The notes under the pieces: model-generated
Told to the model about the DNA's origin: nothing
Seen by the model: the letters and a program-made list of their open reading frames with translations, nothing else
The model's database searches: none
From: Acidobacteriota bacterium
Lineage (GTDB): Bacteria > Acidobacteriota > Vicinamibacteria > Vicinamibacterales > UBA2999
Direction: 5' to 3'
DNA: 64,000 bases
Assembly: GCA_947482665.1 (NCBI GenBank)
Contig: CANKJK010000009.1
Coordinates: forward strand, 65,603-129,602
Part shown: piece by piece, positions 590 through 23,145 of the stretch
Layout of the letters: each line of letters starts with the position of its first letter
Numbering within the stretch: the stretch's first letter is position 1
Made by a program: the position numbers and the translations under genes

Positions 590-1930
590 CTACAGCGCCA
601 GCGGGCCAAGGGTGCCATCGCTATCACCGAACTGCTCCAGGCGCACGCCCAGCCGCTCCATCATCGCGAGCTGGAGATTCGCCAACGGCGTCCCCTTCTT
701 CACGCGTATGTGGCGGCCACCGCCGATCCGGAACTCCTTGCCGCCCAGCACGACCGTGGGCACGTTGAACATCAGGTGCTCGTTGGAGTTGCTCATGCCC
801 GATCCATAGAGCAGGAGCGTGTGATCGAGCAGGCTCCCATCGCCATCGTTGATCCTGGCAATCTTGTCGAGGAAGAACACGAACTGCTGCAGCATAAAGA
901 TATTGAGCTTCGCCTGCTTCTCCAGCTTCGCCGGATCGTCCTGGTGATGCGAGAGCGGGTGATGGGGATCGGGCACGCCGATCTCCGGGTAGGTGCGAAC
1001 GCTCTGCTCCTGCGCCATCAGGTAGCTCGCCACGCGGGTCATGTCGGTCTGGAAGGCCAGGGCCAGCAGATCGAACATCAACTTCGCGTGTTCCTCGAAC
1101 GTGCCCGGCACGCCTGCCGGCCGATCGACCACCGGCAACTGTTTCTCCACCTGCTCTTCGGCCTTCTGCACCCTGCGCTCGACGTCGCGCACGGCATCGA
1201 GGTACTGATCGAGCTTCAGGCCATCGCCAGGCCCGACCGTCTTGCGCAGGGCCGACAACTTGCCGTTGACGCCATCGAGGATGCTCTTGTCGCGCAGGAT
1301 CAGATCCAGCCGCGCCTTGGAGTCCGTTGTATCGCTCGCACCGAACAGCCGCTCGAAGACCGCACGCGGGTTGTTTTCCATCGGCAGGGGCGTCGTGGCA
1401 TTCCGCCAGGCGATCGTGCTGCTGTAGGCGCAGCTGTAACCCACACCGCAGGACCCGCCCATGGCGGGCGGTTCGATTCCCAGTTCAAGACTGCCCAGCT
1501 GCGTCTGCTGCCCGAGTTCGCGTGCGATGTACTGATCCCACGACGTGCCCGCGCGGAGGTCGGCGCCTTCGGTGGCCTTCGCCTTGACACCAGTTGCCCA
1601 AGTGGTCTGGCAACGAGGGTGCACGCCTCCATCCCGCGCATCGGCTTCCTTGCTGTCGAGGCCCCCGATCACCAGCATGCGGTCGCGGTACGCCTCGAGC
1701 GGTGAGAGCACCGGCGACAGCACGAGTGCGCCCTCGCTCGCAGGCGTGTACTTCGCCATGTTCATGCCCATCGGGACATAGACGATGCCGACTCTCCTGG
1801 GCGCGGACGCGGCCGTGAGACGCGTCGGCACGAACGCCGGCACCATGGCGTCCAGCATCGGCAGCGCAATCGCGGTACCCAGCCCCCGCACGACGGTGCG
1901 GCGCGACAGCATTTTCCCTGTGACGGTCAT
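590..1930 (-). CDS. DUF1552 (HXXSHH family) Tat-exported protein
   Basis: A 446-residue protein. It begins with a twin-arginine signal (SRRTVVRG, Arg10-Arg11, then a hydrophobic stretch to about residue 35), so export is predicted to be folded through Tat. The family motif HPLSHH is at residues 324-329, followed by a glycine-rich GSGMSNSN segment near 376. These are hallmarks of the DUF1552/HXXSHH family (PF07586), whose reaction is not established; the histidines may bind metal. The ATG overlaps the stop of the DUF1592 gene by 4 nt (ATGA), implying translational coupling and a shared job. Three more DUF1552 proteins occur in this window, each directly after a DUF1592 gene. The family call is secure and the biochemical role is unknown. 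Confidence 0.93.
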   Translation of the reverse strand: MTVTGKMLSRRTVVRGLGTAIALPMLDAMVPAFVPTRLTAASAPRRVGIVYVPMGMNMAKYTPASEGALVLSPVLSPLEAYRDRMLVIGGLDSKEADARDGGVHPRCQTTWATGVKAKATEGADLRAGTSWDQYIARELGQQTQLGSLELGIEPPAMGGSCGVGYSCAYSSTIAWRNATTPLPMENNPRAVFERLFGASDTTDSKARLDLILRDKSILDGVNGKLSALRKTVGPGDGLKLDQYLDAVRDVERRVQKAEEQVEKQLPVVDRPAGVPGTFEEHAKLMFDLLALAFQTDMTRVASYLMAQEQSVRTYPEIGVPDPHHPLSHHQDDPAKLEKQAKLNIFMLQQFVFFLDKIARINDGDGSLLDHTLLLYGSGMSNSNEHLMFNVPTVVLGGKEFRIGGGRHIRVKKGTPLANLQLAMMERLGVRLEQFGDSDGTLGPLAL

Positions 1931-4380
1931 CCTTCGGCTCTCCTCATCTGGAACGGCATACTGCGGACGACGGCCATGACCAGCGACGACCAGCGCAGCC
2001 CGCCTTTTTCGGCATCGCGCATGATCTGCCGCACGGCCGGCTGATCCTGATACTCCACGCCGCGGCCGAGCGCGTAGGTCAGAAACTTCTGCGTCATGGT
2101 GGAGAGGAACAGTTCACGGAAGCCGACCAGGCCTGCCCGAAAGTCGACCGGGCCGCTGAACTTCACACCACCACCCGGGAACGATCCCGAGGGGTCGATC
2201 GGGCTGGTGCCGTCAATCGTCCGCCACTGCCCGATGGCGTCGAAGTTCTCGAAGGCGAAGCCCAGCGGATCCATCTGCCCGTGACACGCCGCGCACACGG
2301 GGTTTCTCCGGTGCTGCTCCATGCGCTCGCGCACTGTGCGCGGTGCCTCGCCTCCCTTGGTCTCCGGAAACGGCGGCACATTGGCTGGCGGCGGTGGCGG
2401 CGGGACACCCAGGATGTTCCGGAGAATCCACGCCCCGCGCAAAACGGGCGAGGTCCGATGCGCGTAGGACGTCACCGTCAGGATGCTGCCGTGGCCCAGG
2501 ATGCCCGCGCGCCGGTCATCCGGATATGCCACCCGGCGGAAGTGACTCCCCCGCACATACGGGATGCCATAGTGACGGGCTAGGCGTTCATTCACGAACG
2601 TGTAGTTCGCCGTCAACAACTCCATGACGGGCCGATCCTCGGCGAACTGCGCCTTCAGGAAGAGTTCCGTCTCCTCCTGAAACGACCGCCGCAGATTCTC
2701 ATCGAACTCCGGCAATGCCTTCGTGTCTGGACGTTGCCCCGCCAGGGTCCGCAGCGTCAGCCACTGGCCGAAGAAGTTGGTGACGAGCGCACTCGCGCGC
2801 GGGTCGCGCAACATCCGGGCTACCTGGCCTTCCAGCACCGCACGGTCACGCAGCCGGCCCTGCGTCGCCAGCGTCAGTAACTCCTCATCGGGAATCGTGC
2901 TCCACAGGAAGAAGGACAGCCGGCTCGCAAGCGCCACGTCGTCCACGCGATAGGGTGTGCCCGCCTTCACGCCGGCCGGCTGCTTCTCGACGCGGACCAG
3001 GAAGTCAGGATCGCTCAGCAACCGCTCCAGGCCCCACTGGACGCCCGCATCAAAGGTGCCGCGCGCCGCTCGGCCGCTGGCGAAGGCCTCCATGAGCGGC
3101 TTCACGTCAGCCTGCGTCACGGACCGCCGGTAGGCTCGTCTGGCAAGCCCGGTGAAGATCCGACGGGCACAGACATCCTCCCCTCCGGAAACCGGCTTGC
3201 ACACGAAGATCCGCCGCCGGCTCGGACTGTCGTCCGATGGATGGCCATTGAACGGGCCCGCGATGTCCATGGTGTCGATCGCTGACTTCACCTTCCCACC
3301 GCCGGCGCTAGTGTCGGTCACACTGGCGAAGCCGTCGCTCGATGGAGGAATCCGCAAGGGTCCCACGCCCTCGACAACGTCTGTCCAGTCGAGGAACGCC
3401 ACACCAACGGCATGGAGGCCGGCCTTGACCGGCAGCGTGAACTCCAACCCGGCGTCCGGTTCGCCCGCCCCGGGTTCCGCATAGGCACCGGCGGGCTTCG
3501 CGCCGCCGACCGCGAAGGTCTTCACGCGCTCGCCATCGATGCGCACGTCAATCTGGCTCTTCTCGGCCAAGCCGCGCACGCGATTGCCGAGCGCCTGCGC
3601 GTGCCGCTGAAGGCGGAGCCGAATCTTGTAGTCACCATCCAGCGGAAACTGATGCCGCACCAGCAGGCCCCCACGCGTCCCGGCGGGCAGGTCGTTGCTC
3701 ATGCGCTCGTCCTGCAGCAGCGTGAGATACGGCAGGCGATAGGACTCGACTGTGGGCCGCAGCGTGGGGTCACCGACGGCGACGCGCGCGATTTTACGGG
3801 CGGCCAGCACGTATCGTTCGAGCAGGCCCGGCGACATCGTGAGCACGTCGGCCACGTTGTCGAACCCGTAGCCGGAGTCGTCCGCCGGCAGCAGGTCGAG
3901 CTGCTCGATGGAGACGGCCAACAGGTCCCGGATGGCATTCGTGTATTCCGTCCGGTTCAGACGATGGACCACATGCAGGCCGGGATCCGGCGCAGCGGCA
4001 GCTTCCTGATCAAGGCCGTTCTCGAGCGTCGCCACGAGCGCACTGCGCGTCGCGTCATCGGGCCTGGGATTGCCGGGCGGCGGCATTGAGCCGATCCGCA
4101 GTTTGCGAACCACCTTTTCCCAGGCTGCCGCGCGCGGCGACAGGCGGTCAGTCTGGATATCCTGCAAGACGAGGTCGCCAGCCTTCGTGCGGGTGTTATG
4201 ACAGCCGACGCAGTACCGGTCCACCGTGGCCTTGACCGCCTCCGGAGCCATCGCGAGCGTCACCGGGGTGGCCGGCGTCGCGGACCTGGCCTGCCCGCTT
4301 CGGGCTTGTGTCGGGGCTGAGGCCACGGCGAGCACGGCCGCCATACAGAAAAGCGTCTTGAGTGGGGTCATCGTGAACAT
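1927..4380 (-). CDS. DUF1592/DUF1588/DUF1585 diheme secreted protein
   Basis: An 817-residue protein with a signal peptide (about 1-26) and two c-type heme motifs: CVGCH (57-61) at the N-terminus and CAACH (696-700) near the C-terminus. The order fits the planctomycete-type architecture: N-terminal PSCyt-like heme segment, DUF1587 (HRLNRTEYTNAIRDLL), an all-beta middle region, DUF1595 and DUF1592 (LASRLSFFLWSTIPDEELL), DUF1588 around the second heme, and DUF1585 at the end (FLTYALGRGVEY). The function of this architecture is not known; the hemes imply electron transfer in the periplasm. It lies 21 nt after the ankyrin gene and overlaps the DUF1552 gene by 4 nt. It is the first of four such proteins in the window. 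Confidence 0.93.
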   Translation of the reverse strand: MFTMTPLKTLFCMAAVLAVASAPTQARSGQARSATPATPVTLAMAPEAVKATVDRYCVGCHNTRTKAGDLVLQDIQTDRLSPRAAAWEKVVRKLRIGSMPPPGNPRPDDATRSALVATLENGLDQEAAAAPDPGLHVVHRLNRTEYTNAIRDLLAVSIEQLDLLPADDSGYGFDNVADVLTMSPGLLERYVLAARKIARVAVGDPTLRPTVESYRLPYLTLLQDERMSNDLPAGTRGGLLVRHQFPLDGDYKIRLRLQRHAQALGNRVRGLAEKSQIDVRIDGERVKTFAVGGAKPAGAYAEPGAGEPDAGLEFTLPVKAGLHAVGVAFLDWTDVVEGVGPLRIPPSSDGFASVTDTSAGGGKVKSAIDTMDIAGPFNGHPSDDSPSRRRIFVCKPVSGGEDVCARRIFTGLARRAYRRSVTQADVKPLMEAFASGRAARGTFDAGVQWGLERLLSDPDFLVRVEKQPAGVKAGTPYRVDDVALASRLSFFLWSTIPDEELLTLATQGRLRDRAVLEGQVARMLRDPRASALVTNFFGQWLTLRTLAGQRPDTKALPEFDENLRRSFQEETELFLKAQFAEDRPVMELLTANYTFVNERLARHYGIPYVRGSHFRRVAYPDDRRAGILGHGSILTVTSYAHRTSPVLRGAWILRNILGVPPPPPPANVPPFPETKGGEAPRTVRERMEQHRRNPVCAACHGQMDPLGFAFENFDAIGQWRTIDGTSPIDPSGSFPGGGVKFSGPVDFRAGLVGFRELFLSTMTQKFLTYALGRGVEYQDQPAVRQIMRDAEKGGLRWSSLVMAVVRSMPFQMRRAEG

Positions 4381-4401
4381 GGCAGGCAGTGTCGTGACTA
4401 T

Positions 4402-5868
4402 CTAGTAGGAGCCGCCGGCCTCGCGGAGGATGACGGCGGTCGACGGGTGGCTGTAGAGCATCATGATGACGATGACGCCGTCCGCGATGCGAAGCGGTGT
4501 CTCGCCGGCCTTGTTCTTCACATTGATCGAGGACCCCTGCGTGAGCAGGTACCGCACGACCGTGTCGAAGCCCCCGTGTGTCGCCACATGCAACGGCGCA
4601 TTGCCAAGCGCGTTGATGGCGTTGACGTCTCCGCCCACCTCAACGGCCAGCTTCACGGCGGCGAGATGGGCACTTTCCGGAATATTGCTTTCCAGGTCGT
4701 AGAACCCGGTGACACCGGCGGCCGCCATCACGGGCGTTGTGCCGTCCTTCGCAGCACGCAGCGGATCTGCGCCATTGGCCAGCAGAAACTTCATGGTGTC
4801 GGCATCAGCCGCCAGCGACGCGACGAAGAACGGCGTCGCCCCCGTCAGTGCACCACCCCCGATAATCGTGCCGGCTGTGCCGGTCGCCCCTGTCCGCCCG
4901 AGCGGCGGCGCCTTGGTGACCGCGGCGTTCACGTCGGCGCCGTGCTCGAGCAGCAGGCGCATCAACTCGCGCTTCCGGTCGCGGGGAATTCCGCCCATGC
5001 GCTGCAACTCATTGCCGTCACGGCCGAAGCTGATGCTGGTCGCATTGTCCCAGTTCCCGACGACCCAGTGGAGCACCGTGTAGCCGGCTTTGGCGGCATT
5101 CGGATCGGCGCCACGCTCAAGCAGCGTCCGGACTAGATCGACGTGGCCTCTGAGCGCCGCGACATGCAGGACGGTCGTGCCGTCGACGGCCTCGGCGTTC
5201 AGGTCCGCCTTTCTTTCGAGGAGCAGGCTGATCGTCTCCCGGTCGTCCAGGCGAGCGGCGAAGGCCAGGGGCGTGTAGCCGGCCGTTGAGCGGGCGTTCA
5301 CATCGGCGCCATGCTCCACGAGCAGACGTGCGATCTCGCGATGTCCCTCGGCAATCGCCCACATGAGTGGCGTCTGCCCCTTCGTGGCCTCATGGGCGTT
5401 GACGTTGGCGCCGGCGGCGAGCAGCGCCTTGACCACGCCGGGACGCCCGGTCAGCGCGGCGCTCATCAGCGCCGACTCCCCCGTCGGCAAGGTGGTGTTG
5501 GGATCGGCGCCGGCCTTCAGCAGACGCGAGACCATGGCCTCGCTGCCATTGGCCGCGGCCATATGCATCGCCGAGACGCCGAAGTCGTTGACGAGGCCAA
5601 CTTTCGCGCCGGCCGCCAGCAGGAGATCCGCCGTCTCGACGTCGTCCCACTGCGCCGCCCACAGGAGGGCCGTCGCGCCGTCGGGCTGGCGGGCATCGAC
5701 GTCACCTGCGCGGCTCTTGAGCAGGACTCGCACCAGCGCCCGGTTCTGCTGGCGAACCGCGTCGGCCAGCGGCGCGCCGGCCGGGGGTGCCGCGAACGCG
5801 TGTGACGCGGCTATGGTCCCGAAGAGCAGACACGTACAGATAGAACGGCAGGACAGTATTCGAGCCAT
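4402..5868 (-). CDS. Secreted ankyrin-repeat protein
   Basis: A 488-residue protein with a signal peptide ending near AFAAPPAG (about residue 26), then roughly eleven ankyrin repeats up to the C-terminus (GATALLWAAQWDD, GQTPLMWAIAEGH, GTTVLHVAALRGH, GATPFFVASLAAD). Two repeats are interrupted by loops. One follows GYTVLHWVVGNWD; the other is a Gly/Thr-rich stretch before GATPFF. The same two breaks recur in the sister proteins at 23146 and 47307. It appears to be the first gene of the operon that continues with DUF1592, DUF1552 and a second ankyrin gene. The upstream gap carries a TCCGGTATT motif. The protein is probably periplasmic and acts through protein-protein contacts; what it binds is not known. 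Confidence 0.92.
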   Translation of the reverse strand: MARILSCRSICTCLLFGTIAASHAFAAPPAGAPLADAVRQQNRALVRVLLKSRAGDVDARQPDGATALLWAAQWDDVETADLLLAAGAKVGLVNDFGVSAMHMAAANGSEAMVSRLLKAGADPNTTLPTGESALMSAALTGRPGVVKALLAAGANVNAHEATKGQTPLMWAIAEGHREIARLLVEHGADVNARSTAGYTPLAFAARLDDRETISLLLERKADLNAEAVDGTTVLHVAALRGHVDLVRTLLERGADPNAAKAGYTVLHWVVGNWDNATSISFGRDGNELQRMGGIPRDRKRELMRLLLEHGADVNAAVTKAPPLGRTGATGTAGTIIGGGALTGATPFFVASLAADADTMKFLLANGADPLRAAKDGTTPVMAAAGVTGFYDLESNIPESAHLAAVKLAVEVGGDVNAINALGNAPLHVATHGGFDTVVRYLLTQGSSINVKNKAGETPLRIADGVIVIMMLYSHPSTAVILREAGGSY

Positions 5869-5953: not shown

Positions 5954-6772
5954 CTACTTGGAGGCGGTAAAGGCGACCGTTTCGTCCGAGACCTGGACGG
6001 TGCCCTTCATCGCGGTGCCGGCAGCGTCCAGCTCCCCCTTCCAGACGTAGGAGTCTCCCTGGATCGCCTGCTCGTATCGAAAGGACACCACATTCCCCTT
6101 CAATTCGCCGTTGATCGGCGTGCTGCCGAAACGGTTGGAGGTGCAGGTCCCCGTGAGACGCCCCGCCTCTTCGCGGAACACGCAGTCGGCACCTACGCCG
6201 ACGCCGCTTCGCCGGATGGCCACCATTGTCCACGCGCCCCCGATGCCACCCACTGCCGTGTTCTGCCGTGCCATCGGCGCGGCGGGACGCGGTGCCGCCG
6301 CGACCGTCACAGGACTCACCACATCCGCCCGTCGCGCCACCGGCGCCGTCACCCGCACCCACTGTCCCACCAGCGCGTTGAGCGCCGAGGCGGCGTCCTG
6401 TGGCACGGCGACCGTGACAAGCGCGAGTTTCGAGGCCGCATCGACCGATGTCACAGACGCCTCCGTGAGAAACCCGTAGGAGACGTCGGCCATCTCCGCC
6501 TTCGCCGGCGCGTACACGACGGCGTCGCCAGCGGCTGACCAGACGAGGGTGACGGGCCCCGGTGTCTGTCGTGCCATCAGACGCTTCGCGGTGGCCTCCG
6601 TCACTGGTACGCGGAGGGTTGCGGACGCACCGTCCACCGTGACCACCTCCGCATGCCAGCCAAAGCTGCGCTCAGCGGCCCGCGCCGACACGGGCAGAGC
6701 GGCCACCACCAGACTGGCAGCGATCAGCATTCCCACGCGACGTTGGCGCATGCGCCTACCCTCATTCACCAT
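5954..6772 (-). CDS. Secreted hypothetical protein with lipocalin-like C-terminal part
   Basis: A 272-residue protein. The ATG at 6772 is preceded by a good ribosome binding site (AGGAGG, 5 nt spacing). A second ATG at 6751 is possible. A signal peptide runs to about ARAAERS. The middle (about 35-150) is a beta-rich region without a family I recognise. The last 95 residues (GGIGGAWTMVAIRRSG, CTSNRFGSTPINGEL, VSFRYEQAIQGDSYVWKGEL) look like a small beta-barrel or lipocalin-type domain often seen in acidobacterial secreted proteins. It lies 101 nt downstream of the cytochrome/DUF1080 gene on the same strand. Function unknown. Confidence 0.75.
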   Translation of the reverse strand: MVNEGRRMRQRRVGMLIAASLVVAALPVSARAAERSFGWHAEVVTVDGASATLRVPVTEATAKRLMARQTPGPVTLVWSAAGDAVVYAPAKAEMADVSYGFLTEASVTSVDAASKLALVTVAVPQDAASALNALVGQWVRVTAPVARRADVVSPVTVAAAPRPAAPMARQNTAVGGIGGAWTMVAIRRSGVGVGADCVFREEAGRLTGTCTSNRFGSTPINGELKGNVVSFRYEQAIQGDSYVWKGELDAAGTAMKGTVQVSDETVAFTASK

Positions 6773-6873: not shown

Positions 6874-8268
6874 TCACTTCCCCGCGGCGCCGTCGTCCAC
6901 CTTGATCCGCATGTTGCGCCACCGGATCTTCCCACCCTGTGATTGAAACGCGATGTACCCGCCGCCAAGGGCAGCGAACTCGTGCCGCGTGACCGTCGAA
7001 CCCAGCACGCCGTTGACATACGACTTCACGGTGCCGTCGCGCGAGGAGACGATGCGGATCGAATTCCACTCTCCGATGGGCCGCTGCGCCGCGCGGACCG
7101 CAGCATGGTCGTACGTTCTCTCGATCTTGGCGTTGACGCCGATGGCCTCGAGCAGGTCCCGTTCGTGGCCCTCCACCTCGATCATCTTCGGCCACAGGTC
7201 TGCGGACTGCACGAAGATGAGCGTCCCGTTGCTGGCCTGAAAGAGCCACGGCGGGCCTTCCCAATCCTCCGGCCTGTCCCACCGGTAGTCGAACCGCAGG
7301 TCGTAATAGAGATACTTCTTCGCCGTGTACGCAAAGCCGTGAATCTTGCAGTCGCAGCGCAGTTCGTCGTCCGCGACAGAGAACACACCGGACGGGTCGG
7401 TCTGCACACAGCCGTCAGGCGGCGCGCCGCAGTTCGGGCGAAGCGCGAACTTCAAGCCCGAAAAGTCCTTGCCATTGAAGATCCGCTCGAAGCCCGGCTC
7501 GTCGAGCGCCAGGGTCTTCATCACGGCATAGTCGGGCGTGAGCGCCCGCCGGCCCGCCGGATACTTGTTCTGCTTCAGGATGTAGGCGCCGATATCCGCA
7601 CGGATCTGCTGCGAGATGGCCGTCGTGTCGTAGGCCGGCATCGCCTCGAGCTTCTTGAAGAAGTAGTAGACACTCGGCCACACCCGCACGCCGCCGGACT
7701 CCTTCTGGAGAAACCTGTCGCCGAACCCTCGCGCCGTGTGGCAGAAGCCGCAGTTGCGGTTGAAGGCGAGCCGGCCCCGCTCGGCCTGCTCCTCCGTGTA
7801 GTAACGGCCGCCCGAGTAGTCGTCGCGAGGAATGGTCCCCGCGTCGGCCGCCTGCAGGACCGGCTTCGCCAGGTCCGCCAGAGCCGTCAGCTCCATCGCG
7901 CCGGCAGCCACGCCACTCTTCTCCAGCAAGTAGGCCAGCACGTCCGCGTTCTGCTGCGGGCGAAGACCGCCCGGGCTGTGCAGCGGCATCTGGACCTGGA
8001 TGTACCGGAGGAGCTGCCCCACGTCGCGGGCTTTCCACTTCGCGAGGAAGGCCGCGCCGGCCACGGGCGGGGCGATGTCGCCGCCCATCAGATCCTGCAG
8101 ATGGCACATCTGGCAGTTCGCGGCGTACACGGTGGCGCCTCGCGCGGCCTGCGGTGCAGAAAAGACCGGGTTCCAGGCGGCGGGTTGCGCCGGCAGATCC
8201 ACCGTCAGGGCAAATGCTCCGAGGGCTGTCAGTGCGAAAGCGACGAGAGCATGGGTCGGTCGAAACAT
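6874..8268 (-). CDS. Diheme cytochrome c fused to DUF1080 domain
   Basis: A 464-residue protein with a signal peptide (about 1-28), a first cytochrome c domain with CQMCH (52-56) and a second with CGFCH (173-177). A C-terminal DUF1080 / 3-keto-disaccharide hydrolase-like domain follows from about residue 255 (FERIFNGKDFSGLKF to the end). DUF1080 is a concanavalin-like beta-sandwich family linked to sugar binding or hydrolysis. The fusion would place it directly beside an electron carrier. The first cytochrome domain closely resembles the stand-alone cytochromes at 22512 and 52117. The gene is divergent from the PQQ dehydrogenase at 8365, a plausible electron donor. Domain calls are firm; substrate is inferred only loosely. 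Confidence 0.88.
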   Translation of the reverse strand: MFRPTHALVAFALTALGAFALTVDLPAQPAAWNPVFSAPQAARGATVYAANCQMCHLQDLMGGDIAPPVAGAAFLAKWKARDVGQLLRYIQVQMPLHSPGGLRPQQNADVLAYLLEKSGVAAGAMELTALADLAKPVLQAADAGTIPRDDYSGGRYYTEEQAERGRLAFNRNCGFCHTARGFGDRFLQKESGGVRVWPSVYYFFKKLEAMPAYDTTAISQQIRADIGAYILKQNKYPAGRRALTPDYAVMKTLALDEPGFERIFNGKDFSGLKFALRPNCGAPPDGCVQTDPSGVFSVADDELRCDCKIHGFAYTAKKYLYYDLRFDYRWDRPEDWEGPPWLFQASNGTLIFVQSADLWPKMIEVEGHERDLLEAIGVNAKIERTYDHAAVRAAQRPIGEWNSIRIVSSRDGTVKSYVNGVLGSTVTRHEFAALGGGYIAFQSQGGKIRWRNMRIKVDDGAAGK

Positions 8269-8301
8269 CCGGCAATCATGCCTAGCGCACGACGGGACGC
8301 C

Positions 8302-8334
8302 AATACCTGATTACCGGATGTCCGGAATATCAGG
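8302..8334. promoter_or_regulatory. Inverted repeat in divergent promoter region, with GGTATT motif
   Basis: The gap between the divergent cytochrome/DUF1080 and PQQ dehydrogenase genes holds an imperfect palindrome (CCTGAT...CCGG, 4-nt centre, CCGG...ATCAGG). Its minus strand contains CCGG-N3-TCAGGTATT (8302-8317), also present at 22479-22494. It could be an operator controlling both genes. Confidence 0.4.
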
Positions 8335-8364
8335 GGCTGCCGGGATCAGCTAACGTTCCCCGCC

Positions 8365-10338: not shown

Positions 10339-10431
10339 AGATGCCCGATGGGGACACGAGACGAGCAGGGCAGACCGAGACAGGCGAGGTATCCCGTGTT
10401 CGACCAGTTCAGTGACGGAAGAAGGAAAGAA

Positions 10432-10508
10432 TGGTCGGGGCGACTGGATTCGAACCAGCGACCCTCTGCTCCCAAAGCAGATGCGCTACCAGACTGCGCT
10501 ACGCCCCG
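10432..10508 (-). tRNA. tRNA-Pro (anticodon TGG)
   Basis: On the minus strand the gene starts CGGGGCGTAGCGCAG and pairs its 7-bp acceptor stem with CGCCCCG. The anticodon arm is TCTGC-TTTGGGA-GCAGA, giving anticodon TGG. The T-arm holds GGTTCGAATCC, and CCA is encoded at the 3' end (10432-10434). Total length is 77 nt including CCA. It sits between the PQQ dehydrogenase and NHL genes, on the opposite strand to both. Confidence 0.97.
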
Positions 10509-10645
10509 ACTCAGGTGATTATCCCACGACCGAGCGGTGTTGCACGGTCGAGTCCGGAGACCCTCAATCGCACCCACCATCCCCGGCGAGCCGACCGGCC
10601 CGTTCAGGAGTAGGATTGGCACCTATTTTCCGGAGAACTTTCCCA

Positions 10646-11707
10646 ATGCGACTGACAATTCGCACCGTATCCGCGGCCGCCATTACGGCCGGCTCAGTCG
10701 TGCTCGCCGCCATGGTCCACATCGCGGCGCAGTCCGCCCCCGCCGCACAGTCGGCGGCCGCACCACTCCCGCCTCCAGCTCCGGGCTACACACAGGTCCT
10801 CCCATGGGGTCCGGTGCCCCACGATCCCGCGCCGATCCGTGATTACGTCGTCTGGAACAAGGACATCTTCTGGGAAATGGGACGCGTCGCGGTCAACACG
10901 AAGGGCGATCGCCTCTACGCTTTCCGCCGCTCGGACCCGCCGATCCTGCAGATCGACCCCACCACCGGGAAAATCCTGAAGGAATTCGGAAGCGGCATGT
11001 TTGTCTGGCCTCACGGGATGTATGTCGACAAGGACAACAACCTCTGGGTCACCGACGCGACGGTGTCCAACACCGATCCGAATCTGGCCAAGCAGTTGAA
11101 GCCGGCCGTGGCGGCTGGCTACGGACACCAGGTCTTCAAGTTCAGCCCCGAGGGCAAGCTCCTGCTGACGCTCGGCACGAAGGGCATGGCCGGCGAATCA
11201 CCCACACTCTTCAACGCCCCGGCCGACGTGATCGTGGCGAAGAACGGCGACATCTTCGTGGCCGATGGCCACGTCGGGACGCGCATCGCCAAGTTCGACA
11301 AGACCGGTAAGTTCCTCAAGTCGTGGGGCACCAAGGGCAATGGTCCGGGGCAGTTCATTCAACCGCACGGCCTCGCGCTCGACTCTCAGGGACGTCTGTT
11401 CGTCGGAGACCGAGGCGGCAACGGCGGACGTGTCGCCATCTTCGACCAGGACGGCCGCTACATCACGGAATACAAGCAGTTCGGCAATCCGAGCGGTGTC
11501 GCGATTACGCCGGACGACACGATGTATGTGACCGATCAGGGCAAGAAGATTGTCACGGTCGGCAACGCCAGGGACGGCGCGGTCTACGGCATCATTCCGG
11601 ACATCTGGGCGGAAGGCGTCAGCGTGGATCGGAATCACACGGTCTATGCGGGCGAGGTCTTCCGCCGCCACATGAAGAAGTTCACCTTCACGAAGCCCGG
11701 GCACTAA
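10646..11707 (+). CDS. Secreted NHL-repeat beta-propeller protein (PAL-like)
   Basis: A 353-residue protein starting at ATG 10646. Codons upstream in the same frame run through the tRNA gene and are not used. A signal peptide covers about 1-33. NHL repeats follow: FVWPHGMYVDKDNNLWVTDA, PADVIVAKNGDIFVADGH, IQPHGLALDSQGRLFVGDR and PSGVAITPDDTMYVTDQ. The pattern resembles peptidyl-alpha-hydroxyglycine alpha-amidating lyase-like six-bladed propellers, but lyase activity is not shown by sequence alone. It is followed within 53 nt by the VOC gene and probably forms an operon with both VOC genes. A second NHL protein lies at 25808. Confidence 0.88.
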   Translation: MRLTIRTVSAAAITAGSVVLAAMVHIAAQSAPAAQSAAAPLPPPAPGYTQVLPWGPVPHDPAPIRDYVVWNKDIFWEMGRVAVNTKGDRLYAFRRSDPPILQIDPTTGKILKEFGSGMFVWPHGMYVDKDNNLWVTDATVSNTDPNLAKQLKPAVAAGYGHQVFKFSPEGKLLLTLGTKGMAGESPTLFNAPADVIVAKNGDIFVADGHVGTRIAKFDKTGKFLKSWGTKGNGPGQFIQPHGLALDSQGRLFVGDRGGNGGRVAIFDQDGRYITEYKQFGNPSGVAITPDDTMYVTDQGKKIVTVGNARDGAVYGIIPDIWAEGVSVDRNHTVYAGEVFRRHMKKFTFTKPGH

Positions 11708-12906: not shown

Positions 12907-12935
12907 CTGAGGCGGGCCCGTCGGGTCCGCCTCAG
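12907..12935 (+). terminator. Stem-loop between convergent genes (probable terminator)
   Basis: CTGAGGCGGGCCC and its complement form a 13-bp stem (one G-T pair) around a 3-nt loop, 20 nt after the VOC stop. ATTT follows, so the T-tract is weak. The right arm overlaps the stop codon region of the convergent DUF1552 gene. Confidence 0.6.
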
Positions 12936-14266
12936 ATTTCGAGACGCCCCGTGCTGTCGCCGAACCGATCGGCCGGCACACCCATCTTGTCGAGCAGCGA
13001 CAGCTGCAGGTTTGTCAGCGGCGTGCCCTTCGGGTGACGCACGTGACGGCCGCCCTTGATCCCGAATGTCGACCCGCCAAAGACAATCGTCGGCACGTCG
13101 TACGGCAGATGCAGGTTCGAGTTGCTCATGCCGGAGCCATACAACATGAGCGTGTGATCCAGCAGCGACCCCTCACCATCCGGCGTCGACGCCAGGCGCT
13201 CGAGAAAGTGGGTGAAGAGCTGCAGGTGGTACACGTTGAGCTTGGCCTGCTTCTCGAGCTTCTCAATCTGGTCCTGATGGTGCGACAGGCCGTGGTGCTG
13301 CTCGGGAACACCAATTTCCGGGAACGTGCGCACACTGAGTTCGCGGCCGACCATGAAGGTGGAGATGCGTGTCAGGTCCGCCTGCAGTGCCAGCACGTTC
13401 AGATCGAACATCAGCTTCGTGTAGTCCTTGAACTCCGTCGGAATGCCCGCAGGCTGCTCGACGGACGGCAATTCACGGCCCGACTGCTGCTCCGCCCGCT
13501 CGACGCGCCGCTCCACGTCGCGTACGGCGTCCACGTACTCGTCCAGCTTGGCCTGGTCGCCAGGACCGACGCGCTTCTTCAGCTTGACCATGTCCGAGGA
13601 CACTGAATCCAGCAGGCTCTTCCCCCGCCGCATGTCGGCCAGGCGCGTCCTGGCGTCGGTGCTGTCGCTGGTGCCGAACAGCCGCTCGAACACCGCGCGC
13701 GGGTTGTACTCCATGGTCAGCGGCGTCGACGGCCCGCGCCAGCACATGGTCGCGGTGTAGGCGCACGTGTAGCCCAGGTCACACGCGCCCAGGAGGTCCG
13801 ACGACTCCAGCGCGAGCTCCAGCGACGCGAGCTGCGTCTCGTTGCCGATGGCCTTGGCGGCCACCTGGTCCATGGAGATGCCGACCTGCATGTCGGGTCC
13901 CTCGGTGCGCTTCGCATGCTGCCCCGTCAACCAGCACGGCTGAATGCGCGAGTGCACCCCGCCGCCATCGCGAGCATCGGCGTTCTGCATGTCCAGGCCG
14001 CTCAGCACGACCGCGCGATCCTTGAACTTCTCCAGCGGCTGAAGGATCTCCGACAGCTCGAGAGGGCCTTCCGTGGGTGGCGTCCACTTCTTCATGTACG
14101 CACCCATCGGGACGTAGATGGAGGCCAGGCGCTTCACCGGTGCCGCCGCGCTGAGGCGCACCGGCGTGAGGGCCGGCACCATCGCGTCCAGCAACGGGAG
14201 GGCGAGTGACGCCCCGAGCCCTCGCAGGACAGTGCGGCGCGGCAGATTCAGCTTGGTGACGATCAT
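12932..14266 (-). CDS. DUF1552 (HXXSHH family) Tat-exported protein
   Basis: A 444-residue protein with a Tat signal (PRRTVLRG, Arg10-Arg11) and the family motif HGLSHH near residue 325. LLDHTLMLYGSGMSNSN follows, then FGGSTFGIKGGRH, and the protein closes with a short FGDSTGRLEI tail. It is closely similar in layout to the DUF1552 proteins at 590 and 43413. Its ATG overlaps the upstream DUF1592 stop by 4 nt, the same coupling as in those two loci. It is the last gene of the minus-strand run from 22416. Reaction unknown; the conserved His cluster suggests metal binding. Confidence 0.93.
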   Translation of the reverse strand: MIVTKLNLPRRTVLRGLGASLALPLLDAMVPALTPVRLSAAAPVKRLASIYVPMGAYMKKWTPPTEGPLELSEILQPLEKFKDRAVVLSGLDMQNADARDGGGVHSRIQPCWLTGQHAKRTEGPDMQVGISMDQVAAKAIGNETQLASLELALESSDLLGACDLGYTCAYTATMCWRGPSTPLTMEYNPRAVFERLFGTSDSTDARTRLADMRRGKSLLDSVSSDMVKLKKRVGPGDQAKLDEYVDAVRDVERRVERAEQQSGRELPSVEQPAGIPTEFKDYTKLMFDLNVLALQADLTRISTFMVGRELSVRTFPEIGVPEQHHGLSHHQDQIEKLEKQAKLNVYHLQLFTHFLERLASTPDGEGSLLDHTLMLYGSGMSNSNLHLPYDVPTIVFGGSTFGIKGGRHVRHPKGTPLTNLQLSLLDKMGVPADRFGDSTGRLEI

Positions 14267-16785
14267 GATGCGGACGCTCTCCTCATCTGGAACGGCATGC
14301 TCCGGACGACACCGAGGATCAGATTCGACCAGCGATAGTCGGAAGGGGCCGCATCCCGCATGATCTTCCGAACCGCCGCCATGTCCGACGGCTCCACGCC
14401 GCGCCCCATCGCGTAGGTTAGCAGCTTGGAGGTCACCGTGCCGACCAGTGCCTCCGGGCGCTTGAGCAGTGCCTGCCTGAACTCAGCCGGGCCGCTGAAC
14501 TTGGTGCCATCGGGCAACGTGCCAGAGGCATCCACCGCGCTGGCGCCGTCCAGATCGCGCCACTGGCCGACGCCGTCGAAGTTCTCCAGCGCAAATCCCA
14601 GCGGGTCCATCTTCGAGTGGCAGCTGGCGCACACCGGATTCTTTCGGTGCTGTTCCATGCGCTCACGGACTGACGTCGCGACCTTCTTGCCATCCGCGCT
14701 CTCGGGCAGTGCCGGCACGTTGGGTGGGGGCGGCGGCGGGGGCGTGCCGAGAAGGTGCTCCAACAACCAGGCGCCGCGCTTGACCGGAGACGTCCTCGTG
14801 GACATCGAAGTCACCGTCAACAGACTCCCCTGCCCAAGGATGCCGCCACGGCGGCCATCGGCAAACGTCACACGACGGAAGCGGGGACCGTACACATTCG
14901 GGATGCCGTAGTGCCGGGCGAGCCGCTCGTTGACGAACGTGTAGTTCCCCGTCAGCAATTCCATGGCACCGTGGTCCTCGCGGACCTGACTGTCGACAAA
15001 CAGCTCCGTCTCCTTGATGAAGGCCTGGCGGAGGTTTTCGTCGAAGTCCATGAACGCCTTCTGGTCCGGCCGATGCAGGCGCATGTTCCGCGTGTAGAGC
15101 CACTGGCTGAAGAAGTTCTGAATGAAGCTCGCCGACTTCGGATCGGCCAACATGCGCCGGACTTGCTGCTCGAGAACCATCGGCTCCTTGAGGCGGCCCG
15201 CGATCGCCAGGTCGAGCAGGCGGTCGTCGGGGATGCTGCTCCAGAGGAAGAACGACAGGCGCGACGCCAGTTCCACGTCGCTCAGCCGATAGGCCGCAGC
15301 CGGCTTGACGCTGGCGGGATCCTCCTCAATCCGGTAGAGAAAATACGGAGAGACGAGCACGCGCTCCAGGGCGCGCTGAATGCCGCCGTCAAAACCATCC
15401 TCGGTGCGTCCCGCTCGATAGAACTCCAAGAGCGTGGTCACATCCTCATCCGTCGCCGCGCGGCGATACGCCCGCCGAGCGAGCTTCGAGACGATGGTTT
15501 TGGCGCAGGCGTCCTCACGTGCGGCCGCGCTGACTGGACCCGCCTTTGTGCCGGCCGCCTGCCGCGCCGCGGAGGACACGGGCACCACGTGTGCGCCTGC
15601 CGCCGAGGTCTTCATCGGCGTTGGAGCGGACGGGTCGCACACGAAGATACGCTTCCGGCTCTCGGTTGTCATGGGCCGGCTCGCCTTGAAGGGCCCATCC
15701 ACAAACACCGTGTCGACTGCCATTTCGACGCGACCGGTATTCACGCCCGACGCCTTCGCCGACTGGGTGCCGAAGCTCGCAGCTGGAAACCGCGACGGCC
15801 CGATCCCTTCAGGCGCCCACGTCCGGTTCTGAAAGGACACGCTGATCGTGTGCGGGCCCGCCTTCGCGGCAAAGCGGACGACCAGGGCGTCGTCGGCAGG
15901 TGGACGCGGCGCCGAGGAGTATGGATTTGGACCCACCGCATCCGGCCCTCCGACGGGCATCAGCGCGAGCCGCTCCCCATCGAGCCGGATATCCACCTGC
16001 TCCGCGGTGGACAAACCACGAGGCTCGGTATCCAGATAGCTGCGCTGCATCGTGACGTGGACGCGGTACTCCCCATCGACCGGAAACATGTGCCGCACCG
16101 TCGTGCCCCCTCGGGAGCCGAACGGCAGGTCCTCACTCATGCGCGAGTCCTGGAGCAGCACCATATAGGGCAGGTTGTATGCCTGCAGCCCGGGTTTGAC
16201 AGTGGGGTCGCCAAGGGCGAGCCGACTAATCTTTCTCGCAGCCGCCATGTAGCGCTCAAGCAAACCGGACGACACCGAGAGCACATCGGCGATATTGTCG
16301 AAGCCGAAGCCGCTCGTATCAGCTGGCAGCAGGGCCGGCGCGTCGATCTCGAGGGCAAGCAGGTCGCGCACAGCGTTCGCATACTCCGCGCGATTGAGGC
16401 GATGCACTGCGGGGCGGCCCGGATTCGGGGTCTTCAGGGACTGCTCATCCAGCGAGGTCTCCAGCCAGGAGACGAACCCACCCATGGTCTGCTCATCGGG
16501 GCGCGGGAGGCCCGCCGGCGGCATCGCACCCACGTGCAGCTTGCGGACCACCTTCTCCCATATCTCGGGATGCTCCGACATCTGCCCGAGCGGCGCCTCA
16601 TCGAGCAACAGGCCCGCGGCCTTCTGGCGCTTGTTGTGGCAGGTGACGCAGTACTTGTCGACCAGCGCCTGCTGCGAAGCGGCTGGAGCAGAGGCCGTCA
16701 GAGGACCAGCGGGACCAGCGATGGCAGGGACCGGCGCTGCCGCGACGGCGAGGAGGATGGCGGAGAAAACGGTCAGTCGGGTCAA
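14263..16785 (-). CDS. DUF1592/DUF1588/DUF1585 diheme secreted protein
   Basis: About 840 residues from a TTG start (GAGG 4 nt upstream) that gives a clean signal peptide (MTRLTVFSAILLAVAAAP). A GTG at 16836 would add 17 residues before it. The heme motifs are CVTCH near the N-terminus and CASCH about 120 residues from the end. The domain order matches the protein at 1927: DUF1587 (HRLNRAEYANAVRDLL), beta-rich middle, DUF1595/DUF1592 (LASRLSFFLWSSIPDDRLL), DUF1588 and DUF1585 (LLTYAMGRGVEP). An insertion rich in Ala/Lys (about residues 385-415, APTPMKTSAAGAHVV) just before the DUF1595 segment is absent from the other three copies. It is translationally coupled to the DUF1552 gene at 12932. 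Confidence 0.9.
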   Translation of the reverse strand: MTRLTVFSAILLAVAAAPVPAIAGPAGPLTASAPAASQQALVDKYCVTCHNKRQKAAGLLLDEAPLGQMSEHPEIWEKVVRKLHVGAMPPAGLPRPDEQTMGGFVSWLETSLDEQSLKTPNPGRPAVHRLNRAEYANAVRDLLALEIDAPALLPADTSGFGFDNIADVLSVSSGLLERYMAAARKISRLALGDPTVKPGLQAYNLPYMVLLQDSRMSEDLPFGSRGGTTVRHMFPVDGEYRVHVTMQRSYLDTEPRGLSTAEQVDIRLDGERLALMPVGGPDAVGPNPYSSAPRPPADDALVVRFAAKAGPHTISVSFQNRTWAPEGIGPSRFPAASFGTQSAKASGVNTGRVEMAVDTVFVDGPFKASRPMTTESRKRIFVCDPSAPTPMKTSAAGAHVVPVSSAARQAAGTKAGPVSAAAREDACAKTIVSKLARRAYRRAATDEDVTTLLEFYRAGRTEDGFDGGIQRALERVLVSPYFLYRIEEDPASVKPAAAYRLSDVELASRLSFFLWSSIPDDRLLDLAIAGRLKEPMVLEQQVRRMLADPKSASFIQNFFSQWLYTRNMRLHRPDQKAFMDFDENLRQAFIKETELFVDSQVREDHGAMELLTGNYTFVNERLARHYGIPNVYGPRFRRVTFADGRRGGILGQGSLLTVTSMSTRTSPVKRGAWLLEHLLGTPPPPPPPNVPALPESADGKKVATSVRERMEQHRKNPVCASCHSKMDPLGFALENFDGVGQWRDLDGASAVDASGTLPDGTKFSGPAEFRQALLKRPEALVGTVTSKLLTYAMGRGVEPSDMAAVRKIMRDAAPSDYRWSNLILGVVRSMPFQMRRASAS

Positions 16786-16864
16786 AGGCGCCTCACATCT
16801 CCATGTTGACTGGCGCCGCGCCTGGGAACCAGGCACGCGAACGAACGGACGGTCTGAATGGCTC

Positions 16865-16894
16865 GGCGCCAGGGCACGGGTGTGTCCTGGCGCC
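16865..16894 (-). terminator. Stem-loop downstream of ankyrin gene
   Basis: GGCGCCAGG and CCTGGCGCC form a perfect 9-bp stem around a 12-nt loop, 13 nt after the ankyrin stop and before the next DUF1592 start. No T-tract follows, so it may be a weak terminator or an mRNA processing structure separating the two halves of the run. Confidence 0.4.
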
Positions 16895-16907
16895 GCCCAG
16901 CCCGTGC

Positions 16908-18683
16908 TTACTTCTTCTGGACGACCGGAACGGCGATCTCTTTGGTCGCCTTCACGTCCTTCACGTAGCCGTTGCCCGTGACGTCTAGCGCGTCGCTCGC
17001 CTCGATGCCACGGTCCTTCATCAGCTTCACCAGCAATGCCGCTGTGTGCCGCTGTGACTTGTAGAAGTTGGAGTACATCACACCGTTGGCGATCGTCAGC
17101 GGCGTCCAGCCGAGAATGTTCCGCGTGTCGAGCTTGGCACCCTGCTCCACGAGATACTGCGCAACCAGATTGAAACCCTTGTAGGCCGTGCCGTGCAGCG
17201 CCGTCTCTCCGTTGTCGTCGATGGAGTTCACGTCCAGACCGAGAGAGAGACAGTACTTCACGGCCTCCAGGGATTCCTGCTCCGTGCCGGCATCCTCGCC
17301 CGGGTTGAACTGATCAACGCCCGCTGCCACCAGGATGGCATTGGTGTTCTCGACGTTGGGGATCTTCGGATCCGCGCCCATCGATACCAGGAGCTTCATC
17401 ATCTCCGGATCGATGCCCTTGGCTGCCAGCAGGAAGGCCGTCGCCCCCGTCCGGTTCAACCGGTTCCGGTAGCCGTCGCCCATGCCGGGCACGGTCATCC
17501 TGGCATTGATGTCGGCGCCCTTCGTCACCAGCTGCTTGGCCAACTCGAGGCTCGTCACGCGGCCCGCCTGTGGAGGATGCGGCAGGTGGCCGTCATGAAG
17601 TCGACGGGTCACCACCAGCTGCTGCAACGGTGTAATCCCGCGGCCGTTCGCATTGGGATTGGCACCGCGGTCGAGCAGATACGCTGCCATTTCGAACTGC
17701 CCGTTGACGATGGCGATATAGAGCGGCGTCGTGCCGTCCGACGCGGGCTCGTCAATCTTCGCCCCGGCTTCAAGCAGGACCTTCACCGCGTCGAAGTGAC
17801 CGGCGCGCGCGGCAAAGAGCAGCGGCGTCAGACCTTCCGTGATCGTCCGGGTGCCGTAGCTCTGGACCGAGATGTCCCGGCCCTTCGGATAGACCTTCTT
17901 CAGCACCAGCGGATTGTTACCGCGGTTGATATCCGCCTCGTCGTCTGAGGGATCACCGTAGACCTTCGGCTTGCCGTCGCCCCCCAGCTTGGCCGGCTCC
18001 GCCGAGGCCACGACCGGCTTGCCGTCACCACCGAGGCGTTCAGGCTCTTCCGACACCTTCCCAGAAGCCGTACCCGTGCGAGCCGCGTACTCACTCTTCG
18101 GCTGCGGCTTCTTCGCACGGATATTGGAATGGGCGTTCACTTCCGCGCCGGCCTCCGTCAGGATCTTGATCGCCGGCACGTTCCCCTCGACGGCCGCCCA
18201 CATCAGAGCCGTCTGTCCGCGCGACTTCTCCTTGGTGTCCACCTTGGCCCCATGGGCCAGCAGCACCTTGACGGCGTCGGCGTTGCCATTGCGAGCCGCC
18301 TGCATCAGAGGCGTCTCGCCGGTGGCCATCGCGATATTCGCGTCAGCGCCTGCCTTCAGCAGACGATCGATGATCGGCGCATTGCCCAGACCTGCCGCGA
18401 GGCTCAGCGGTTCGATGCCGTAGTTCGTCACAGCCCTGGCCTTCGCCCCGGCCGCAATCAGCGCGTCCACGATGGCGGGCTGATCCCCCTGCGCCGCCCA
18501 GTGCAGCGCGGTCATCCCGTCCGGCGCCGGCGCATTGACGTCGACGCGCCTGGCCAGGACAGCCTTGACGGCCTTCAGATCACCCACTCGGACTGCCGAG
18601 ATCAGCGGGGTGTCGAGGGTCGCCGCCAGCCCCGTCGTCGCAAGCGCGACGACGGCCACGAGAGCAAGAGCACTGCGCTTCAT
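16908..18683 (-). CDS. Secreted ankyrin-repeat protein with disordered insert
   Basis: A 591-residue protein, the longest of the ankyrin set. A signal peptide (MKRSALALVAVVALATTGLA) is followed by about four repeats to residue 186. A polar, low-complexity insert (about 187-282) contains LGGDGKP twice (217-223 and 233-239). About seven more repeats follow (GLTPLLFAARAGH, GTTPLYIAIVNGQ, GATAFLLAAKGID, GETALHGTAYKGF). The C-terminus has a 25-residue tail (GYVKDVKATKEIAVPVVQKK) missing in the sister proteins. It starts 2 nt after the DUF1552 gene at 18686, so it is part of the same operon. Binding partner unknown; the neighbouring DUF1592/DUF1552 pair is the obvious candidate. Confidence 0.92.
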   Translation of the reverse strand: MKRSALALVAVVALATTGLAATLDTPLISAVRVGDLKAVKAVLARRVDVNAPAPDGMTALHWAAQGDQPAIVDALIAAGAKARAVTNYGIEPLSLAAGLGNAPIIDRLLKAGADANIAMATGETPLMQAARNGNADAVKVLLAHGAKVDTKEKSRGQTALMWAAVEGNVPAIKILTEAGAEVNAHSNIRAKKPQPKSEYAARTGTASGKVSEEPERLGGDGKPVVASAEPAKLGGDGKPKVYGDPSDDEADINRGNNPLVLKKVYPKGRDISVQSYGTRTITEGLTPLLFAARAGHFDAVKVLLEAGAKIDEPASDGTTPLYIAIVNGQFEMAAYLLDRGANPNANGRGITPLQQLVVTRRLHDGHLPHPPQAGRVTSLELAKQLVTKGADINARMTVPGMGDGYRNRLNRTGATAFLLAAKGIDPEMMKLLVSMGADPKIPNVENTNAILVAAGVDQFNPGEDAGTEQESLEAVKYCLSLGLDVNSIDDNGETALHGTAYKGFNLVAQYLVEQGAKLDTRNILGWTPLTIANGVMYSNFYKSQRHTAALLVKLMKDRGIEASDALDVTGNGYVKDVKATKEIAVPVVQKK

Positions 18684-18685: not shown

Positions 18686-20002
18686 TTAGATCCCCGCCAG
18701 TTCGCCCGTGCTGTCGCCCAGCTTGTCCTGGGGAGCCCCAACCTTGCGCAGGAGCGAAAGCAGCATGTTCGTCATGTGCGTTTCCACCGGGTACTTCAGG
18801 TGGCGATTGCCCTTCAGCGTGCCGCAGCCGCCGCCCACGAGGAGCACCGGCAGGTCAAGCGCGCTGTGGAGGTCGCCGTCACCGAGACCCGTGCCATACA
18901 TCATGATCGAGTGGTCCAGGATGTTGCCGTCGCCATCCGGCGTCGCCTTGAGGCGGTCCAGATACTGCGCGAAGAGCGACATATGGTACGTGTTGATCTT
19001 GGCGTGCTTCGCCAGCTTCTCCGGGTTGTTCTGGTGGTGCGAAACGTCGTGGTGCGCCTCGGGCACGCCGATGAACGGATAGGGCCGGCTCGTCTGCTCA
19101 CGCGAGAGCTGATACGCGATGACCCGCGTGATGTCCGCCTGATAGGCGAGAAACTGCAGGTCGAACATCAGCCGCACGTGCTCGTCGAACGTATCCGGAA
19201 TACCCGAGGGCTTATCCCCGACCTCGATGGGCGAGGTCGCATTCTGCTTCTCGACCTTCTGAATGCGCTGCTCCACCTCACGAACCGACTGGAGGTAGGC
19301 GTCCATCATCAGCTTGTCGCTCGGCCCAATCCGCTTCTGGAGGCGCGCCATGTCATTGCGGACCGAATCCAGGATGCTGCGGTCATTCTTGAGATCAGCC
19401 ATCCGGGCGCTTGCCGTCCCGCCATCACCGAACAGGCGCTCGAACACCGCCCGCGGGTTGTTCTCCATCGGGAGCGGCGTGGTCGGCGTGCGCCAGGAGA
19501 ACGTGTTGGCATACACGCAGCTGTAGCCGTTGTCGCAATTGCCGACCGTGAAGTTCGGCTCCGTGGCCATCTCCAGTGAAATCAGCTGGGTGTCCTTGCC
19601 GAGCACCCGCGCCGCCAACTGGTCCGTCGTGGTCGTCAGTTCCACGTCGGCGCCTTCGGTGCGCTTGCAGGGCGTGCCCGTCAGCCAGGCCTGGCTGGAC
19701 CGCGTGTGTGGCCCGCCGCCGCCATCCACCGTCGCGTTGCCGAGGCCCTCGACGACTACGACCTGATCCTTGACGTTGGCGAGCGGGCTCAGAATCGGCG
19801 AGAGCTCAAAGTTGGGACCATCCCCCTTCGGACGCCAGTAGGGCTGCGACATGCTGTTCGGCACGTACACGAACTGCATGCGCATCGCCGCCTTTGGAGC
19901 AGCAAAGGCCGGCACCATCGAATCGAGATACGGCAAGGCCAGCGCGGCTCCAACGCCGCGAAGCATTGTGCGGCGTGGAATGGACAGCTTCGTGATCATC
20001 AT
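18686..20002 (-). CDS. DUF1552 (HXXSHH family) Tat-exported protein
   Basis: A 438-residue protein with a Tat signal (PRRTMLRG, Arg10-Arg11). The family motif is HDVSHH, followed by ILDHSIMMYGTGLGDGD. This last segment differs from the GSGMSNSN or GCGMSDSN found in the other three DUF1552 proteins, and the protein also has KCGT-like changes (GGGCGTLKGNRHLKYP), so this copy is the most divergent. It starts 5 nt after the DUF1592 gene at 20008. It is followed after 2 nt by the ankyrin gene, giving the order DUF1592-DUF1552-ankyrin within one transcript. Confidence 0.93.
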   Translation of the reverse strand: MMITKLSIPRRTMLRGVGAALALPYLDSMVPAFAAPKAAMRMQFVYVPNSMSQPYWRPKGDGPNFELSPILSPLANVKDQVVVVEGLGNATVDGGGGPHTRSSQAWLTGTPCKRTEGADVELTTTTDQLAARVLGKDTQLISLEMATEPNFTVGNCDNGYSCVYANTFSWRTPTTPLPMENNPRAVFERLFGDGGTASARMADLKNDRSILDSVRNDMARLQKRIGPSDKLMMDAYLQSVREVEQRIQKVEKQNATSPIEVGDKPSGIPDTFDEHVRLMFDLQFLAYQADITRVIAYQLSREQTSRPYPFIGVPEAHHDVSHHQNNPEKLAKHAKINTYHMSLFAQYLDRLKATPDGDGNILDHSIMMYGTGLGDGDLHSALDLPVLLVGGGCGTLKGNRHLKYPVETHMTNMLLSLLRKVGAPQDKLGDSTGELAGI

Positions 20003-20007
20003 GACGA

Positions 20008-22416: not shown

Positions 22417-22475
22417 GATGGCCTTAGGATACAGCCCCCCACCTGAATGAGGAAGGACGAACGGGGCCCGGAACG

Positions 22476-22494
22476 ATACCGGACCTCAGGTATT
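22476..22494. promoter_or_regulatory. ATACC-N8-GGTAT inverted repeat with TCAGGTATT motif
   Basis: The gap between the DUF1592 gene (start 22416) and the cytochrome gene ending at 22512 carries ATACC-N8-GGTAT. It includes CCGG-N3-TCAGGTATT, the same 16-nt pattern found on the other strand at 8302-8317. Candidate regulator-binding site. Confidence 0.4.
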
Positions 22495-22511
22495 TCCTAG
22501 ACAAAATGCGA

Positions 22512-23101: not shown

Positions 23102-23145
23102 CTCCGGTCCAGAGGGCGCGCTGAGCCCGCCCAAGGAGAACGAAC

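Follow-up and report, generated by a model that had tools for sequence, protein, structure and literature searches.

The closest described relatives of the locus analysed here belong to several separate systems. Bacteroides 3-keto-glycoside eliminase/hydratases and hydratases (8rr2, 9fbe, 8tda and 3osd, the last being BT2157 by its title) have the same fold as the model of about residues 256–459 of the protein described below, P0001 (Z 17.2–18.6, rmsd 2.2), but they carry no heme, and 8rr2 retains the histidine of a QDHG motif where the clade of P0001 has Glu or Gln instead. In Caulobacter, lactose use couples the periplasmic 3-dehydrogenase LacABC with DUF1080 proteins, and the DUF1080 proteins CCNA_01705 and CCNA_01698, one of them proposed to be periplasmic, are encoded close to a sugar dehydrogenase (excerpted text of PMC9007349). 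That system differs from the present one in that LacABC is not PQQ-type and CCNA_01705 is a single DUF1080 domain (same excerpts). The Coprinopsis cinerea pyranose dehydrogenase CcPDH oxidizes sugar with PQQ, delivers the electrons to a heme domain and has a carbohydrate-binding module, but is eukaryotic and combines heme b and a CBM1 in one chain (abstract of PMC4332668); its likeness to P0001 and to the neighbouring protein P0002 is one of function. E. coli Gcd and the TIGR03074 family align with P0002 over the catalytic part, but P0002 is without the membrane domain of Gcd. The CBM66 of Bacillus subtilis (4azz) belongs to the same β-sandwich class as P0001 (Z 15.5), although the identity is 8% and DUF1080 structures match better. 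No fusion of a cytochrome to a DUF1080 domain is described in the excerpted texts of PMC9007349 and PMC5673643.

Such a fusion is encoded in a stretch of 64,000 nucleotides, here termed the window, from contig CANKJK010000009.1 of an Acidobacteriota bacterium (GCA_947482665.1, here G000). P0001 is a 464-residue diheme cytochrome c–DUF1080-like protein (6874–8268, minus strand) whose N-terminus, judged by eye, resembles a signal sequence, so that the protein is probably secreted. Both PF13442 (54.9 bits, in two stretches) and PF00034 (36.5 bits) exceed their cut-offs, and the two CXXCH motifs lie inside cytochrome c domains, which by this test makes P0001 a c-type cytochrome. Heme domain 1 spans residues 40–114 (7927–8151, minus strand) with CQMCH at 52–56 and Met94, while heme domain 2 covers about residues 158–235 (7564–7797, minus strand) with CGFCH at 173–177 and Met210; the two methionines are candidate axial ligands. 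In a 12-row alignment of heme domain 2, C173, C176, H177 and P211 are invariant and M210 is nearly so. The DUF1080/PF06439-like β-sandwich follows at residues 259–456 (6901–7494, minus strand; 61.2 bits against a gathering cut-off of 26.8). An earlier note on this DNA had read one polypeptide with two heme domains and a DUF1080 domain, and the open reading frame, the Pfam matches and both CXXCH motifs confirm it.

We consider P0001, at a probability of about 0.5, to be a diheme cytochrome that carries electrons, possibly for quinoprotein dehydrogenases, and whose DUF1080-fold module has been retooled. A quinoprotein such as P0002 would oxidize a sugar or another polyol or alcohol, using PQQ obtained from outside, and the two hemes of P0001 would pass the electrons onward to the respiratory chain. 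The C-terminal domain would derive from the DUF1080 fold with loss of the conserved polar residues of the family, and its β-sandwich may act as a carbohydrate-binding or docking module. Electron transfer is a plausible role for P0001; secretion, transfer from P0002, the binding role and the substrate are all features that we infer.

The fusion architecture recurs in paralogues of the same genome and in three other assemblies, and is thus not a chance arrangement. All seven PF06439 loci of G000 have at least one CXXCH in the same reading frame. Among the matches listed in the class search, fusion relatives occur in G135 and G143, members of the same family as G000, and the fourth assembly, QHWY01000485 (L052), has two fusion genes in a row. 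A scan of species genomes with a single peptide pattern, which may miss fusions elsewhere, matched 44 loci, 39 without CXXCH and five with CXXCH-bearing DUF1080 proteins: three ND5_Bin_3_1 records (G135 C448, C122 and C36), VFZH01000178 (G143 C178) and QHWY01000485. Four of these five records are titled Acidobacteria and VFZH01000178.1 (L050) is titled Acidimicrobiia bacterium; despite this title, G143 is classed in the same family as the window genome and Acidobacteria bacterium ND5_Bin_3_1. In the phylum sample only G000 and G143 matched at E ≤ 1e-35 (2/396 genomes). The weakest of the seven G000 fusions gave 6.2e-49 in the P0001 search, and among the matches listed no family genome outside G000, G135 and G143 did better than 4.7e-24. 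The clade was therefore found in four assemblies only, within this limited search.

A branch with support 100/99 sets the 14 fusion domains apart from 28 other DUF1080 domains in a tree of both groups. The other domains came from the same species scan and were retrieved by a fusion-clade profile, and thus form no balanced sample; they remained once domain hits shorter than about 166 residues had been dropped, together with rows identical in their first 60 letters. Long branches, seen in two fusion rows and among the other domains, leave the inner branching unsure. Heme domain 1 is fused in 7/14 members (the window, L038, L039 at 9118, L043, L044, L045 and the first gene of L052) and is a neighbouring gene in three more, directly downstream in L040, upstream with a 4-nt overlap in L041 and upstream in L047. 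It was not found, fused or adjoining, for L039 at 11490, L042, L046 and the second gene of L052, which comes after the diheme gene. The occurrence of heme domain 1 as a fused part at some loci and as a separate neighbouring gene at others supports a function shared with the heme 2–DUF1080 part.

Across a divergent intergenic region of 96 bp (8269–8364) lies the gene of P0002 (8365–10338, plus strand), a 657-residue PQQ-type dehydrogenase that matches the whole PF01011 β-propeller profile with 592 bits. The closest NCBIfam model is TIGR03074, the membrane glucose/quinate dehydrogenases, whose cut-off of 832.65 bits P0002 does not reach (384.2 bits), and P0002 would be a distant relative of that family. 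The match takes in the profile only from position 145 and the protein from residue 24 onward, showing that the N-terminal membrane part is absent; because of this absence P0002 would need another electron acceptor. Alignment with E. coli Gcd (NC_000913.3) reveals that D354, W404, T424, D466 and K493 are retained while H262, E591 and N607 differ; D354, D466 and K493 belong to the catalytic site of Gcd. A divergent PQQ dehydrogenase next door, as previously proposed, is thus borne out by the profile score, the short gap and the retention of several of these residues.

The linkage between fusion genes and quinoproteins is looser. PF01011 genes immediately adjoin 3/14 fusion members: in the window, at G000 C5 (L042; divergent, 295.5 bits) and at G135 C305 (L043; on the same strand and truncated where the contig stops, 57.8 bits). 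Eleven members have no immediate PF01011 neighbour, five of these on contigs under 9 kb; six of the 14 members lie on such contigs, L043 among them. For the two C2 members of G000, the distance to another PQQ gene is about 5.6 and 7.7 kb. An immediate divergent PF01011 gene at 2/7 G000 members has a binomial chance of about 0.002–0.003, a figure that counts the discovery case and assumes 2,900–3,500 genes and 17 PQQ genes (G000 matches of at least 79 bits); with the discovery case left out, 1/6 is adjacent and the chance is about 0.06. Of 14 stretches around G000 PQQ genes, two gave DUF1080 sequence in tblastn, L096 and L098, which are the C2 and C5 members already described. A P0002-like gene is present in 8/27 class loci, taken around the best heme domain 1 matches listed with flanks of about 1.5 kb. 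A looser association of fusion genes with quinoproteins is suggested by these gene positions.

The specific pair is not conserved. Used as tblastn queries (E ≤ 1e-4), the heme and DUF1080 parts of P0001 both failed to hit any of 15 stretches (0/15) of 7.5–19 kb around P0002 relatives (44–64% identical). These stretches come from ten other genomes, among them G143 and G135, and in three (L140, L141 and L142) the PQQ gene sits at the end of its contig or close to it. The neighbourhood genes came from a simple gene caller, which missed the PQQ gene of L140/L145, and tblastn was used for this test. The expectation of a conserved P0001–P0002 neighbourhood accordingly fails, all 15 stretches being without such a cytochrome. 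This absence feeds the strongest competing explanation, which we hold to be somewhat unlikely, namely that the two genes are neighbours by coincidence, P0001 serving another oxidoreductase and P0002 working alone or free of cofactor. The contact of a PF01011 gene with just 3/14 fusion members also favours coincidence, as does the distribution of the two proteins: P0002-like genes (E ≤ 1e-100) occur in 39/43 family genomes, with up to 11 per genome, and strong P0001 matches in G000, G135 and G143 only, among the matches listed. P0002 also scores 218.5 bits against the NCBIfam model acido-empty-quinoprotein, below the cut-off of 650. Against coincidence stands the adjacency at 2/7 G000 members, a weak counterweight once the discovery case is removed.

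The supply of cofactor bears on the same question. Neither PqqC nor PqqE was found over cut-off in G000 (97.46% complete), while both exceed their cut-offs in the same 19/192 class genomes, a positive control that includes none from the family of the window genome; a separate search of G000 by itself likewise yielded no PqqE above threshold. E. coli PqqU matches 7/43 family genomes (E ≤ 1e-20), G000 not among them. The lack of PqqC, PqqE and PqqU-like hits in G000 is a further point for coincidental neighbours. One study reports PqqU in the class Vicinamibacteria, finds its own acidobacterial PqqU producers to lack PQQ biosynthesis genes, and describes scavenging of PQQ via PqqU for bacteria without those genes, Vicinamibacteria included (excerpts of PMC12124388). 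Perhaps the whole family of the window genome relies on outside PQQ or holds cofactor-free quinoproteins.

The surroundings of the pair were also inspected. A palindrome, CCGGATGTCCGG, lies at 8314–8325 in the intergenic region and was rejected as an operator: it is the sole exact copy in the window, where its pattern shows no enrichment (19 matches with up to two mismatches, 16.6 expected), and the second divergent locus, L042, does not contain CCGGANNTCCGG. Between 6700 and 10700 neither a sigma-70 promoter-like nor a terminator-like site was found. Downstream of P0001, a 272-residue protein (5954–6772, minus strand) has no Pfam match over cut-off and shows weak similarity (16.8 bits for the best domain) to small proteins that four relatives encode next to PQQ genes; its gene is possibly co-transcribed with that of P0001. 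Downstream of P0002, a tRNA-Pro (TGG; 10432–10508, minus strand) stands between P0002 and the NHL and glyoxalase-like genes, which were for this reason rejected as members of the unit; glyoxalase-like and transporter genes flank the G000 C2 fusion paralogues too. The open reading frame 10412–11707 as listed crosses this tRNA, so that a start near 10627 is probable for the NHL-repeat gene. Elsewhere, the window repeats four gene sets (590–5868, 12932–18683, 18686–24594 and 43413–48731) of DUF1552 (HXXSHH), DUF1592/1588/1587/1585/1595 with cytochrome, and ankyrin-repeat genes, several assigned by sequence alone; genes resembling these are found on G135 C132 and close to the C2:253 kb locus of G000. 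The protein at 27214–28962 has carboxypeptidase-regulatory and virginiamycin B lyase-like domains plus a CXXCH motif. A plasmid comparison matched nine records, none covering 80% of the query.

P0001 keeps the DUF1080 fold. In the AlphaFold model (mean pLDDT 72.6) the blocks of this region have pLDDT values mostly of 73–91, with a minimum of 58 at 281–290. The 14 best rows of the structure search are all DUF1080-type entries (Z 16.6–19.3), led by 3hbk (Z 19.3, 182 aligned, rmsd 2.7) and 9fbe (Z 18.6, 171 aligned, rmsd 2.2) and followed by 4jqt, 3u1x, 8v31, 3osd, 8rr2, 8tda and others to Z 16.6; ERGIC-53 and CBM66 rank below (Z 15–16). A profile–profile comparison assigns 99.8% probability to the match between the fusion domain and 12 other DUF1080 domains. 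The fold and the PF06439 score uphold the family assignment of the earlier note, 3-keto-disaccharide hydrolase, as regards kinship, while "hydrolase" proves loose because the PDB titles read 3-keto-glycoside eliminase/hydratase (8rr2, 9fbe) or 3-keto-2-hydroxy-glucal hydratase (8tda, 8v31).

The conserved polar positions of the family are replaced. At the His column of the LQxHG motif, His is present in 0/14 fusion domains against 26/27 other DUF1080 domains with a letter there; the fusion clade has Glu (8/14) or Gln (6/14), the latter in P0001 as Gln444 (codon 6937–6939, minus strand, by alignment). The same column reads QDHG in the second domain of 4jqt and in 3hbk, 3u1x, 3h3l and 8rr2, and QDNG in 9fbe. 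From the chain numbering and the 9fbe change, it appears to correspond to H275 of the Bacteroides lyase, whose H275N variant was used to eliminate a 3-keto-glucoside and is deficient in hydration (excerpts of PMC13273386). In the EYQxLDD motif, Gln is kept in 1/14 fusions against 26/28 others (E364 in P0001) and Asp in 0/14 against 25/26 (G367), conservation alone suggesting a role for both. A position occupied by Arg in 19/28 others is Phe in 13/14 fusions. Fold residues are retained, W401, N419 and G348 each in 14/14 and N402 in 11/14, and two structural positions are partly lost, a Trp (7/14 against 21/21 elsewhere) and a Thr (7/14 against 27/28). The clade has conserved residues of its own, C280, C287 and Y314 in 14/14 and H310 in 11/14.

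Replacement by Asn of what seems to be the same His reportedly impairs hydration, so the fusion clade is unlikely to perform the known hydration step. Elimination or a different reaction is possible, the latter in view of the conserved Y314, C280, C287 and H310 of the clade, and Glu at the replaced His position could still serve as acid/base. It is conceivable, yet unlikely, that the locus forms an oxidation–elimination unit, in which P0002 or another dehydrogenase would oxidize C3 of a glycoside, the hemes would take the electrons and the DUF1080 domain would eliminate the aglycone with no hydration. Loss of the His is compatible with this scheme, as the hydration-deficient H275N lyase still eliminates (PMC13273386, excerpts), and Caulobacter offers a precedent in pairing LacABC with DUF1080 proteins (PMC9007349, excerpts). 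The scheme is opposed by replacement of the conserved Asp and Gln too. The usual oxidizers of the 3-keto pathway are also not linked to the G000 fusions: PF13618 (Gluconate_2-dh3), presumably the LacC family, has no match in G000 with a positive Caulobacter control, the GMC C-terminal family gives a single match, separated by more than 120 kb from the closest DUF1080 locus of the same contig, and no Gfo/Idh/MocA match falls within 40 kb of the seven G000 DUF1080 loci. Moreover, we know of no PQQ enzyme that oxidizes sugars at C3.

More speculative still, and rather improbable, the fusion clade may be a retooled enzyme acting directly on the quinoprotein product, its electrons leaving via the attached hemes, as a fused oxidation–elimination or other keto-sugar machine with a DUF1080-derived pocket of H310, Y314, E364 and Glu/Gln444 and the invariant pair C280/C287. 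Such a machine is not described in the literature searched. The full model proposed earlier, in which PQQ oxidation would leave a 3-keto-sugar for P0001 to hydrolyse by elimination plus hydration, draws on the domain annotation and gene proximity but is very improbable, as the hydration His and the Asp are missing in 14/14 fusion domains (with Gln left in a single one), the gene pair is not conserved and neither PqqC nor PqqE exceeds its cut-off. Both checks put forward with that model, active-site residues on alignment and a conserved neighbourhood, went largely against it; its electron-transfer part is plausible on indirect grounds.

The reading of P0001 as an electron-carrying cytochrome with a retooled module draws together the two CXXCH domains joined to PF06439, the linkage of heme domain 1 in 10/14 members, the three PF01011 neighbours, the retention of Gcd residues in a P0002 without membrane part, and a DUF1080 fold kept while H, D and Q are replaced. 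For the β-sandwich as a binding module speak the CBM66 fold match and the overlap of DUF1080 and CBM66 annotations (excerpts of PMC5673643). The same reading is weakened by the absence of the pair from the 15 stretches, the 11 members without a PF01011 neighbour, the Glu at the His position in 8/14, the conserved residues particular to the clade, the variation of the Trp and Thr at structural positions and the missing PqqC/PqqE and PqqU-like hits.

The clade suggests that the PF06439 name, 3-keto-disaccharide hydrolase, misleads for the cytochrome-fused form, in which the residues linked to the known chemistry are gone and the fold stays. Should electrons indeed pass from quinoproteins to the hemes, P0001 and its partners would be a convergent bacterial equivalent of the fungal PQQ–heme–CBM sugar dehydrogenases, occurring in bacteria apparently dependent on scavenged PQQ.
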